Shown here one piece after another: positions 3,688 to 5,758 of a DNA stretch of 26,867 nt. The position numbers and the translations under genes are program-made. Under the pieces are notes generated by a model. The model was given only the letters and a program-made list of their open reading frames with translations. It was not told the DNA's origin and made no database searches. Position 1 is the first letter of the stretch; every line of letters starts with the position of its first letter. Origin of the DNA: a virus; the IMG/VR virus record IMGVR_UViG_3300030060_002720, positions 1-26,867 of that record; one strand, written 5' to 3'.

Positions 3688-3951
3688 TCAATCTTTTTTA
3701 TCTTCTCCACCAAGCGCACCATAACCACAAATATCTGTCCAGCTATCCACATGACCTGGACTCTTCACTAATCGAGAAATTTTAAGTGCAATCAAACAAA
3801 GATACACCATGCGAACTGATACCTTTATGCCAAGAATAGCTGACCACATTGTCGCAACTCTTTGATGATTATCAAACGCATCACCATAATCTTTTGCTCT
3901 ATCCCCATTGATTAAATCTGCTGCTCTTTTTAAATACCAATCTCTTTTCAT
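3688..3951 (-). CDS. DUF6378 domain protein
   Basis: An 87-residue protein with the pattern I associate with DUF6378: an N-terminal helix followed by GDRAKDYGDAFDNHQRVATM (residues 16-35), a W-x-x-I-L-G turn, a long hydrophobic helix with KISRLVKSPGH (57-67) and DSWTDICGYGALGGE (69-83). The family is common in phages, often near nucleotide or DNA-modification genes, and has no proven function that I know of. The Asp/His/Glu pattern on helices is reminiscent of all-alpha MazG-like pyrophosphatases, but this is only a resemblance. The start overlaps the stop of the nuclease gene (ATGA), so it is translated as the last gene of the operon. Confidence 0.8.
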   Translation of the reverse strand: MKRDWYLKRAADLINGDRAKDYGDAFDNHQRVATMWSAILGIKVSVRMVYLCLIALKISRLVKSPGHVDSWTDICGYGALGGEDKKD

Positions 3952-4319
3952 ATCTTATCCCTTACAATAAAAAACCAAGTATCAATATCAACTTCACACA
4001 CCAAGTCTTTGCTCGAAGAGAAAGCAGAATCCAACACCTCAAGCCTTATCACACATTTGATGGGATGATTATTAAACTTGTAAATGAGAACTGGCTGCCT
4101 ATCTCCAGCATTGTCAACACATTGCTGCCACCAACTTGGCCTATAAGTTGTGCCTTTTTGATAAGCCTTACACTCTATTGACCAACCAGGTATTTCTATA
4201 TCTGCGCCACCAATTTGATATTGGTCTAAGTTTCTTTTTGCATCATAGCCAAGCGCATCTTTGATGAGAGAGCAGATCTTTCTCTCAAAACCAGCGCCTT
4301 TGTCTCTGCTATTCGCCAT
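3948..4319 (-). CDS. PD-(D/E)XK nuclease, Holliday-junction resolvase-like
   Basis: A 123-residue protein with the compact arrangement of phage/archaeal Hjc-like nucleases: KGAGFERKI with Glu12 in the first helix, then GGADIEIPGWSIECKAYQKG with Asp40, Glu49 and Lys51 as the catalytic D...ExK, and a downstream helix WWQQCVDNAG. It would cut branched DNA during recombination or before packaging. Its start lies inside the 3' end of the methyltransferase gene (11-nt overlap) and its stop overlaps the DUF6378 start, so it is tightly linked to both. Being partnered with a methyltransferase, it could instead act in a restriction-modification pair, but its size and the first-helix Glu favour a resolvase. 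Catalytic residues appear intact. Confidence 0.75.
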   Translation of the reverse strand: MANSRDKGAGFERKICSLIKDALGYDAKRNLDQYQIGGADIEIPGWSIECKAYQKGTTYRPSWWQQCVDNAGDRQPVLIYKFNNHPIKCVIRLEVLDSAFSSSKDLVCEVDIDTWFFIVRDKI

Positions 4320-5544
4320 ACTCAGCTACCCTTATCGCATAAAATAACTCTGCAACAACCTGTGGCACAATACTATTACCGAGTGCCTTTAGCTTTTTCG
4401 TTCTGTCTTTTTGGTTTGTGGCAACTCTTGGGATGTCTGCTGGCTCTTCGGAGAAATGTCCAGATAATGCTTCGGATATCCCATCAGCCATGTAACCCAT
4501 TCTGCATTGAGTTGCCCTGTGTTTTGTTGTTGGTGTACTGCTCTTGGCAAACTCATCCTCTCTCTGTTTTCTTTCCAATTGCTTATGTTGCCTGAATCCT
4601 TGTAGTCTCTTGTCGTTGGAGTTGGCAGCATCTTTTGTCTCTGTAACTGTGCTACTGCTGTTACTAGACTTATCTGCCCATCCTTTTCTCTGAGATGCTT
4701 CTCTGATCTTGGCCCTCTCTGTCCATCCCATGCGTTTGGTGTTGGGAACATCTGTTGCGATAACTTCTTCCCTCTCTGTCTTAGACCTACTGATATTTCT
4801 ACTTCTTCCTCTAAAACCTTCCCCCCTTTGCCATTCGGTCTGCTCCCAGGATTTGCTGCTCTCGGTGTCGGCCATAACTTCATTGTGTCTGCTAGGTTCA
4901 AAGAATGACTGCTCTTTCCATCCTTGCTCAATCGTCTGTTGTTCTTTGTCAATGTTAGTTTTGGATGTTCTATTTCTTGTGTTGTTGGTGTTGGAAACAT
5001 CTCCCAACCACTTTTCATTGACGGACTCATTTGATTGGCTGTAGATGTTGGAGTGTGCAATAATCCATACTCTGTCTCGTCTGTGTGGTGCATTTTTACT
5101 TGCAGCTGGAATAACAACCGATTGTACGGAGTAACCTTCTTTTTCCAAATCAGTTTGCACTTGTTCGAATAAAATCCCTTGGTTGATGTTAATAAGACCG
5201 ACAACATTTTCTCCAATGACCCATTTCGGTTTACAATCTTGTATAATTCTAAGCATTTCATCCCAGAGCCACCGATCATCTTCTGTTGCTTTTTGTAGTC
5301 CAGCTTGACTGACTGCCTGGCAGGGAAATCCTCCTGCAACGATATCAATTGTTCCAAGTCCAGTTGCATCTATTGTCCTAACATCATCATAAATGGGAAC
5401 ATCTTTCCAATGCTTGCGCAACACTTGTTGACAAAACTCATCCTGTTCACAAAAGGCAACAGTCTCATAGCCACCAACAAGTTTCTCTGCTGCGTAACTG
5501 AAACCACCAATTCCACTAAACAAGTCAAGTAAACGCATAACCAT
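4309..5544 (-). CDS. DNA (cytosine-5) methyltransferase
   Basis: A 411-residue C5 methyltransferase. Motif I (SAM binding) is DLFSGIGGFS at 7-16, motif IV is GGFPCQAVS at 71-79 with catalytic Cys75, motif VI is ENV at 112-114, motif VIII is PHRRDRVW at 153-160, and motifs IX/X are at the C-terminus (RTKKLKALGNSIVPQVVAEL, 381-400). It flips a cytosine in its target and methylates C5, probably to protect phage DNA from host restriction or to alter expression. Residues about 165-365, where the target-recognition domain should be, are polar and low-complexity with repeated N/D-T/S-N/K units (VSNTNN, VMADTES, DVPNTKR, DAANSND). This same stretch is open in the +1 frame over 326 codons (separate entry). 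The gene follows the repressor gene by one base and overlaps the nuclease gene. ATG at 5544 or 5538 are both possible. Confidence 0.93.
   Translation of the reverse strand: MVMRLLDLFSGIGGFSYAAEKLVGGYETVAFCEQDEFCQQVLRKHWKDVPIYDDVRTIDATGLGTIDIVAGGFPCQAVSQAGLQKATEDDRWLWDEMLRIIQDCKPKWVIGENVVGLININQGILFEQVQTDLEKEGYSVQSVVIPAASKNAPHRRDRVWIIAHSNIYSQSNESVNEKWLGDVSNTNNTRNRTSKTNIDKEQQTIEQGWKEQSFFEPSRHNEVMADTESSKSWEQTEWQRGEGFRGRSRNISRSKTEREEVIATDVPNTKRMGWTERAKIREASQRKGWADKSSNSSSTVTETKDAANSNDKRLQGFRQHKQLERKQREDEFAKSSTPTTKHRATQCRMGYMADGISEALSGHFSEEPADIPRVATNQKDRTKKLKALGNSIVPQVVAELFYAIRVAEYGE
4389..5369 (-). CDS. Overlapping +1-frame reading frame inside the methyltransferase gene
   Basis: A 326-codon frame, +1 relative to the methyltransferase, nested in its last three quarters. 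It is not random: residues about 55-110 (LLTSTKGFYSNKCKLIWKKK, then NRLLFQL and TDETEYGLLHTPTS) match the pattern of a phage/bacterial protein family I recall as fused to or adjacent to C5 methyltransferases. There are repeated x-P-T-P units (LHTPTS 104, MFPTPTT 124, LWPTPRA 165, MFPTPNAWD 207, MLPTPTTRD 247) and a final GQLNAEWVTWLMGYPKHYLD (285-304), a hallmark of that family. The ATG at 5369 has AGGA six bases upstream. Either it is translated from this internal start, or it is reached by frameshifting, or it is the fossil of a former frame. The overlap with an intact methyltransferase makes it dual-coding. That the frame is meaningful is fairly sure; that it is translated is not shown. Confidence 0.55.
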   Translation of the reverse strand: MQLDLEQLISLQEDFPARQSVKLDYKKQQKMIGGSGMKCLELYKIVNRNGSLEKMLSVLLTSTKGFYSNKCKLIWKKKVTPYNRLLFQLQVKMHHTDETEYGLLHTPTSTANQMSPSMKSGWEMFPTPTTQEIEHPKLTLTKNNRRLSKDGKSSHSLNLADTMKLWPTPRAANPGSRPNGKGGKVLEEEVEISVGLRQRGKKLSQQMFPTPNAWDGQRGPRSEKHLREKDGQISLVTAVAQLQRQKMLPTPTTRDYKDSGNISNWKENRERMSLPRAVHQQQNTGQLNAEWVTWLMGYPKHYLDISPKSQQTSQELPQTKKTERKS

Positions 5545-5545
5545 T

Positions 5546-5758
5546 TCATTTGCCTACCATATTAAGCTGTGCTTGTTTCATAAAGTCATTGGCCTTAACT
5601 TCTCCATCAGTTGCTAATTCAATCTTGTTCATAGTCTCTGGTCGAGGAAATCTTTTGCCTTGCAATAGTAGAGAGATAGTAGACTCATTCATGCCACACA
5701 TCTTGGCAAATCTATATTGTGAAATCTTTTTGGTTTTTAAATAATCTTTTAATAACAT
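5546..5758 (-). CDS. Cro/CI-type helix-turn-helix repressor
   Basis: A 70-residue XRE-family protein: MLLKDYLKTKKISQYRFAKM, then CGMNESTISLLLQGKRFPRPETM. The helix-turn-helix occupies roughly residues 12-34, followed by the usual third helix and loop (GKRFPRP). The size fits a Cro-like dimeric repressor without a cleavable C-terminal domain. It is the first gene of the minus-strand methyltransferase operon and is divergent from the recombination operon at 5825, the usual place for an early switch. There is no Shine-Dalgarno sequence: the ATG is preceded by T-A10-T. A -10-like TAAAAA just before it would give a leaderless message. Its likely operator is the dyad at 5779-5793. Confidence 0.88.
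   Translation of the reverse strand: MLLKDYLKTKKISQYRFAKMCGMNESTISLLLQGKRFPRPETMNKIELATDGEVKANDFMKQAQLNMVGK

Follow-up and report, generated by a model that had tools for sequence, protein, structure and literature searches.

A phage C5-cytosine methyltransferase gene with a second reading frame that is under selection and probably encodes a motif IX-bearing subunit

M.EcoHK31I (YGGCCR) is a two-polypeptide C5-cytosine methyltransferase of E. coli, and Lee et al. in 1995 reportedly found its small subunit to be encoded inside the gene of the large subunit, in another frame. The multispecific C5 methyltransferases of phages, of the SPbeta, phi3T and SPR type, are said from the work of Trautner et al. 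in 1996 to carry tandem recognition modules of approximately 40 residues before motif IX. In M.EcoHK31I, all of motifs I-VIII and X reside in the large subunit, which leaves motif IX alone for the small one; M.AquI (alpha and beta subunits) is split between motifs VIII and IX into two polypeptides (PMC3404938). The predicted recognition domain of M.EcoHK31I was assigned to the large subunit, and this enzyme belongs, as described, to a restriction-modification pair. That a C5 methyltransferase can be divided between two polypeptides is already known. What appears to be new in the locus described here is a phylum-wide phage and bacterial family with exchangeable modules in the second frame and selection partitioned between the frames. 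No identifiable EcoHK31I locus was returned by searches of the phage and plasmid collections, and no report of the present family as a nested recognition subunit was found in the literature covered (most subscription papers and REBASE lay outside its scope).

The window, i.e. the whole stretch of DNA analysed, is a 26.9-kb virus record containing genes for terminase, endolysin, tail and a T7-like internal virion protein. On its minus strand, an intact C5-cytosine methyltransferase gene of 411 aa (F1, bp 4309–5544) with motifs I-VIII and X was located, inside which a 326-codon ORF (F2, bp 4389–5369, minus strand, 326 aa) is nested in the +1 frame relative to F1, overlying F1 codons 59-385 (79%). 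Nesting of one protein inside the other in another frame is also the trait reported for M.EcoHK31I. A sequence-only reading had pointed out this 326-codon frame inside an intact methyltransferase gene, and all the sequence details that it gave were correct: an ATG (bp 5369) lies 6 nt downstream of an AGGA (bp 5379–5376), F2 contains five PTP/HTP units and a closing LNAEWVTWLMGYPKHYLD block, and motif VIII of F1 (PHRRDRVWIIAH) overlies HHTDETEYGLLHTP in F2.

F1 matched PF00145 (E=9.4e-47), TIGR00675 (E=2.5e-40; 139 bits vs a cut-off of 100.65) and phrog_363 (E=2.4e-74), and by sequence it matched M.HhaI (E=3.5e-21). The AdoMet-binding and catalytic motifs I (DLFSGIGGF), IV (GFPCQ, with PCQ), VI (ENV) and VIII (PHRRDRVWI) were present and invariant in A4, and motif X (KALGNSIVPQV) was found near the C-terminus. 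AlphaFold2 (AF2) modelled two parts of F1 with mostly good confidence, namely the catalytic domain (residues 1-168, bp 5041–5544, minus strand; pLDDT mostly 80-96, matching M.HhaI 2uyc) and the motif X region (residues 381-409, KALGNSIVPQVVAELF, bp 4318–4404, minus strand; pLDDT 80-89), which superposes with the C-terminus of HhaI. Residues 169-378 between them (bp 4411–5040, minus strand) had a pLDDT of about 30 and are predicted to form a disordered linker, which must stay open. The best match of the model was M.HhaI (2uyc; Z 24.1, rmsd 3.4, 225 aligned residues), compared with which the recognition region was the only part missing. Neither motif IX nor a folded target-recognition region was found in the F1 chain itself by means of a motif-IX HMM and the AF2 model; the canonical motif-IX HMM reached at best 0.6 bits on F1 of the window, with no credible site.

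The longest open run in the +1 frame was 326 codons. Among 5000 synonymous shuffles that kept the F1 protein and codon usage, this run averaged 130 codons and reached 315 at most, and none of them (0/5000) left F2 open. The third frame was ordinary, its longest run being 36 codons (P 0.49). In the F1-F2 family, the longest +1 run occupied 77% of the gene and 155 of 173 genes beat their shuffles, whereas in 76 ordinary HhaI-type C5 methyltransferase genes the run occupied a median of 17% and only one gene did so.

Selection was estimated on pairs of relatives by an overlap-aware dN/dS: each difference was scored as synonymous or nonsynonymous for either frame on its own, and changes nonsynonymous in both frames were set against those that were so in just the other frame. 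For the catalytic part within the overlap, dN/dS was 0.23-0.44 for F1 and 0.45-0.67 for F2, and in the variable part (codons 166-382) it was 0.81-0.88 for F1, the range that applies to the predicted linker, and 0.30-0.71 for F2. Outside the overlap, the same +1 frame gave values of 0.58-1.45 with a CI including 1 in all bands but one, the pairs and relatives being phylogenetically non-independent so that the intervals are too narrow and the P values of pooled pairs and of shuffles optimistic, although the contrast with this outside control is large; the exceptional band, that of the most diverged pairs past the F2 stop, had a +1-frame dN/dS above 1. In the closest pairs, synonymous change of F1 was 0.049 inside vs 0.113 outside the overlap. 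When F1 was synonymously shuffled in 25 relatives, the F2 alignment score dropped every time (z 3.6 to 23), i.e. F2 similarity stood 3.6-23 SD above the shuffles even at about 30% F1 identity. These relatives had no stop in F2, vs an average of 6-12 expected from the F1 shuffles. F1 likewise had none, vs 11.8 expected when synonymous codons of F2 were shuffled. Because of the dN/dS with its outside control and the shuffles in both directions, we conclude that both frames are kept, as the sequence-only reading had proposed: purifying selection acts in both, with F1 close to neutral and F2 constrained across the variable part.

F2 is not only coding but has a start of its own, which in almost every close relative lies about 175 nt inside F1. 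In the window, an in-frame (+1) TAG directly precedes the F2 ATG, and the AGGA (bp 5376–5379, minus strand) represents a Shine-Dalgarno-like (SD-like) site, SD-like words being found in relatives as well. Ahead of the best F2 start, SD-like words of 5 nt or longer were present in 103 of 162 distinct loci vs 22 of 162 control starts (other +1-frame start codons of the catalytic region, in equal number). With words of 4 nt or longer the counts were nearly equal (152 vs 131 of 162), and in the window itself the site consists of AGGA alone. It was also observed that a 59-codon ORF in the F2 frame (bp 5370–5549) begins within an overlap with the end of the adjacent HTH gene and that its TAG abuts the F2 ATG. 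Termination-reinitiation from this ORF into F2 is possible, but the ORF lacks conservation in relatives such as L016.

The closing block of F2 (residues 285-304, GQLNAEWVTWLMGYPKHYLD, bp 4458–4517, minus strand) corresponds to motif IX, with LNAEWVTWLMGYP aligning with LHPRECARVMGYP of HhaI. Of the 64 ordinary methyltransferases with any match to an HMM of 25 F2 columns, 57 were hit at the position of HhaI residues 283-289, albeit with low individual scores; the corresponding counts for column-shuffled controls were 0-5, and once 27. With hhalign, QLNAEWVTWLMGYPKHYL was paired with KLHPRECARVMGYPDSYK at a probability of 88%, and a reversed-profile control using a longer F2 segment aligned nothing. 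In the opposite direction, the ordinary motif-IX HMM picked the MG block in 111 of 111 F2s, with scores that were low (≤4.5 bits). Homology of F2 to ordinary methyltransferases was confined to these approximately 20 residues. In 81% of 189 loci, the DNA that encodes motif IX in F2 overlapped that matched in F1 by the motif X profile. As judged from these profile comparisons, motif IX is located in F2 only and is absent from F1, which is the same motif split as that of M.EcoHK31I.

Over most of its length (residues 5-319 of 326), F2 matched phrog_1008 ('DNA methyltransferase', E=6.9e-33). Scans of Pfam and NCBIfam revealed no family for F2 or for 111 relatives, and a search of PDB sequences with the F2 profile gave chance matches only. 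The AF2 model of F2 was poor overall (pTM 0.30), the confident part being mainly residues 20-92 (SLEKML...KLIWKKKVTPYNRLLFQL, bp 5094–5312, minus strand; pLDDT mostly 70-87, dN/dS 0.45-0.67), a predicted helix-helix-hairpin domain overprinted on the catalytic domain of F1. Fold searches with the model were uninformative (best VIA, Z 5.0 over 60 residues), and a BFVD search returned one F2 relative and one unnamed entry below 1e-3.

Between this domain and motif IX, F2s carry 1-6 units starting with [ML][WLF]PTPxA (median length 38.5). Grouping by average linkage gave 59 recurrent types and 84 singletons, single-linkage clustering having merged most modules. The F2 of the window has the architecture M4-M2-M7-M8-M15, all on the minus strand: module 1, type M4 (LLHTPTSTANQ..., bp 5001–5063), a type seen in 10 F2s and always in the first slot; module 2, type M2 (MFPTPTTQEIEHP..., bp 4878–5000), in 16 F2s at slots 1-4; module 3, type M7 (LWPTPRAANPGSRPNGKGGK..., bp 4752–4877), in 7 F2s at slots 2-3; module 4, type M8 (MFPTPNAWDGQRGPRSEKHL..., bp 4632–4751), in 7 F2s at slots 1-4; and module 5, type M15 (MLPTPTTRDYKDSG..., bp 4521–4631), in 5 F2s at slots 2, 4 and 5. 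The modules have been reshuffled, the same type occurring in different slots and neighbourhoods and 82 distinct architectures being found among 92 F2s; no F2 had the same type twice, while 5.8 such cases were expected (P 0.001).

A recognition-domain consensus, P(STCA)PT(ILV)(TASV), has been described 10-50 residues before motif IX (PMC2413257). The last PTP of F2 lies a median of 48 residues from the MG of motif IX, and the PTP-x-A block resembles this published TL motif, a likeness that is suggestive only. When the whole PTP module plus motif IX was aligned with ordinary methyltransferases by hhalign, only motif IX aligned, and the PTP units had no match to known recognition domains. The units may nevertheless be interchangeable recognition modules, of which mix-and-match arrangement and lack of repeats would be expected. 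The SPbeta/phi3T/SPR-type enzymes reportedly also have several tandem modules of such length ahead of motif IX; they differ in being a single chain in one frame, whereas the F2 modules are located in a nested second frame.

Searching with F2 by tblastn detected 59 phage records, mostly of Paenibacillus phages, and several of these already annotate two overlapping methyltransferase genes (e.g. Leyra gp61/gp62, where gp62 is the F2 homologue nested inside gp61). Besides phrog_1008, of which F2 is a member, paired 'DNA methylase' genes are on record for phages of Paenibacillus, Streptomyces, Arthrobacter and Mycobacterium; in these records both genes are called methyltransferase, and the role of a second subunit is unstated. 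The proteins with a PTP/WLMG pattern that the sequence-only reading described as annotated as parts or neighbours of phage methyltransferases correspond to phrog_1008, which would be the overlapping second subunit, rather than to translation artefacts. Profile searches with F2 revealed at least 244 loci among bacterial genomes and no fewer than 408 among viral contigs; in an even sample of one bacterial class, 12 of 369 genomes gave a match; loci with the F1-F2 layout came from many bacterial phyla as well as phages. F2 accompanied F1 in every locus examined, most loci having been found through the F2 profile itself and thus forming a biased sample of methyltransferases. In 170 of approximately 180 distinct loci, the catalytic part is in frame f, the N-terminal part and motif IX of F2 are in f+1, and motif X returns to frame f, on the ORF that also holds the catalytic part. 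The +1 frame was stop-free in these 170, contrary to what the sequence-only reading had named as fatal to its claim (stops or no constraint in related phages), and together with selection in both frames this common layout argues that one locus encodes two proteins.

Two other arrangements were noticed. In L051 and L060 (Brevibacillus), L212 (phiBT1), L213 (Vash) and L215 (ArV1), the first ORF stops beyond motif VIII, and motifs IX and X are found in the second frame. With both motifs there, all five, among them the actinophages phiBT1 and Vash, resemble M.AquI, from which the window differs in having motif X in the first frame, so that its frames interleave. In L089, L095, L099 and L021, the catalytic frame carries motif IX and a third frame carries motif X, as after one net indel; a pseudogene, a sequencing error and a real single-chain variant are possible alternatives for them. 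Many records annotate one frame only, or set the F2 start too far downstream. The phiBT1 record annotates gp9.1 alone, as 'may be inactive', leaving the second frame without annotation, and in actinophage records (L213, bp 1378–2370; L315, Mycobacterium phage Gladiator gp86/gp87) the start of the second 'DNA methylase' is annotated well downstream, the conserved N-terminal part of F2 in Vash starting about 290 nt upstream of the annotated start. Five copies of one F1-F2 locus with identical matches (L101-L105) were present on a single uncultured Roseovarius chromosome (OX638333.1); they are probably repeated prophages.

Two neighbouring genes lie outside the F1-F2 unit, a putative phage PDDEXK nuclease gene (bp 3948–4319, minus strand; PF24608, E=2.2e-10) and an HTH regulator gene (bp 5546–5758, minus strand; PF01381, E=3.7e-7). 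The start of the former overlaps the end of F1, and its product also matches the RusA-like phrog_244. Flanking genes co-occurred with the unit in 33 (PDDEXK), 25 (HTH) and 21 of 204 loci, mostly of close relatives, and no restriction gene was recognised adjoining the unit within the window. For these two reasons F1-F2 is likely to be an orphan, anti-restriction phage methyltransferase; occurrence in phages without an obvious restriction gene is one respect in which it differs from M.EcoHK31I. Rfam and tRNA scans gave no matches, and a promoter scan was uninformative (11 promoter-like sites vs 5.8 expected).

Based on these data, we consider F1-F2 most likely to be a two-subunit phage C5-cytosine methyltransferase, probably an orphan, whose subunits are encoded by overlapping frames. 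F1, translated from bp 5544, would bind AdoMet and catalyse the reaction (motifs I-VIII) and would contribute motif X, and ribosomes would also initiate internally at the ATG at bp 5369 to produce F2. F2 would then bind F1 in trans, adding the missing motif IX and the DNA-recognition part; a recognition region residing in F2, with up to six exchangeable modules, would be a further difference from M.EcoHK31I. The part of F1 opposite the recognition modules may serve as an unstructured tether, kept open for translation of motif X. Each PTP unit of about 40 residues may act as a separate DNA-binding recognition module, several modules per phage may protect several restriction sites, and phages may exchange modules whose lengths leave the two frames open.

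Other explanations of F2 were weighed against this two-subunit enzyme. That F2 is unexpressed, its frame being a by-product of composition or of F1 repeats, has some appeal in that the shuffled null already averages 130 codons, codon usage favours an open +1 frame, and F2N profiles faintly match the +1 frame of ordinary methyltransferases, which is a leak from F1 homology; however, given the two-way shuffles, the frame-specific dN/dS with its outside control, the contrast in long runs (155/173 vs 1/76) and the conserved starts, we regard it as scarcely credible. A programmed frameshift from F1 into F2, giving a single chain of the catalytic part, the F2 modules and motif IX, is also very improbable. 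Chimeric F1-F2 frames do occur in L021, L089, L095 and L099, though they look like single net indels, but F2 is conserved from its N-terminal part (dN/dS 0.45-0.67), upstream of plausible or useful shift sites, SD-like sites and start codons are conserved, and the resulting chain would be without motif X. Since a frameshift out of F1 is unneeded for the conserved N-terminal part of F2 and would not yield it, the switching of C-termini suggested by the sequence-only reading was abandoned as the main mechanism; its idea of altered target recognition holds in so far as F2 has motif IX and, most likely, recognition modules.

F2 could instead be a separate overprinted protein with a role of its own outside the enzyme, e.g. 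a regulator of F1 or an anti-restriction factor. Overprinted genes are often accessory, and the N-terminal domain of about 90 residues is without known relatives, but an ordinary methyltransferase needs motif IX, and a motif IX-like block is present in F2 and absent from F1; F2 is always beside F1 in the loci examined; and where motif X is carried in the F2 frame (L051, L060 and the actinophages) F1 alone would be incomplete, so this reading seems unlikely to us. The part of the two-subunit enzyme more exposed to doubt concerns the PTP units, which might be a scaffold or bind another protein even if the F1-F2 pair is right. The lack of a sequence match to known recognition domains and the low-confidence structure of F2 would fit such a role, which we take as the weaker but still appreciable possibility, whereas the position of the units directly before motif IX, the likeness of PTP-x-A to the TL motif (PMC2413257), the length of about 40 residues, the exchange between phages and the absence of repeats favour recognition modules.

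The F1-F2 overlap recurs in hundreds of loci, which suggests a source for puzzling 'second methylases' and for unannotated PTP/WLMG proteins. To our knowledge, long, ancient same-strand overlaps functional in both frames have rarely been documented in bacteria and phages. Here, labour is divided between the frames, F2 folding where F1 need only stay open. Natural split methyltransferases serve as tools for targeted methylation (PMC3439449), which gives a large new collection of such pairs practical interest. Whether the loci together form a very widespread viral and bacterial class of methyltransferases, in which the second frame provides exchangeable DNA-recognition modules, F1 a disordered tether, and phages swap dual-frame modules to re-target several sites at once, is a wider proposition that we hold to be evenly balanced. 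Should F2 be the recognition subunit, annotating F1 only would overlook what determines specificity, and the catalogue of modules may be turned into a testable code predicting which sites a phage protects from restriction.
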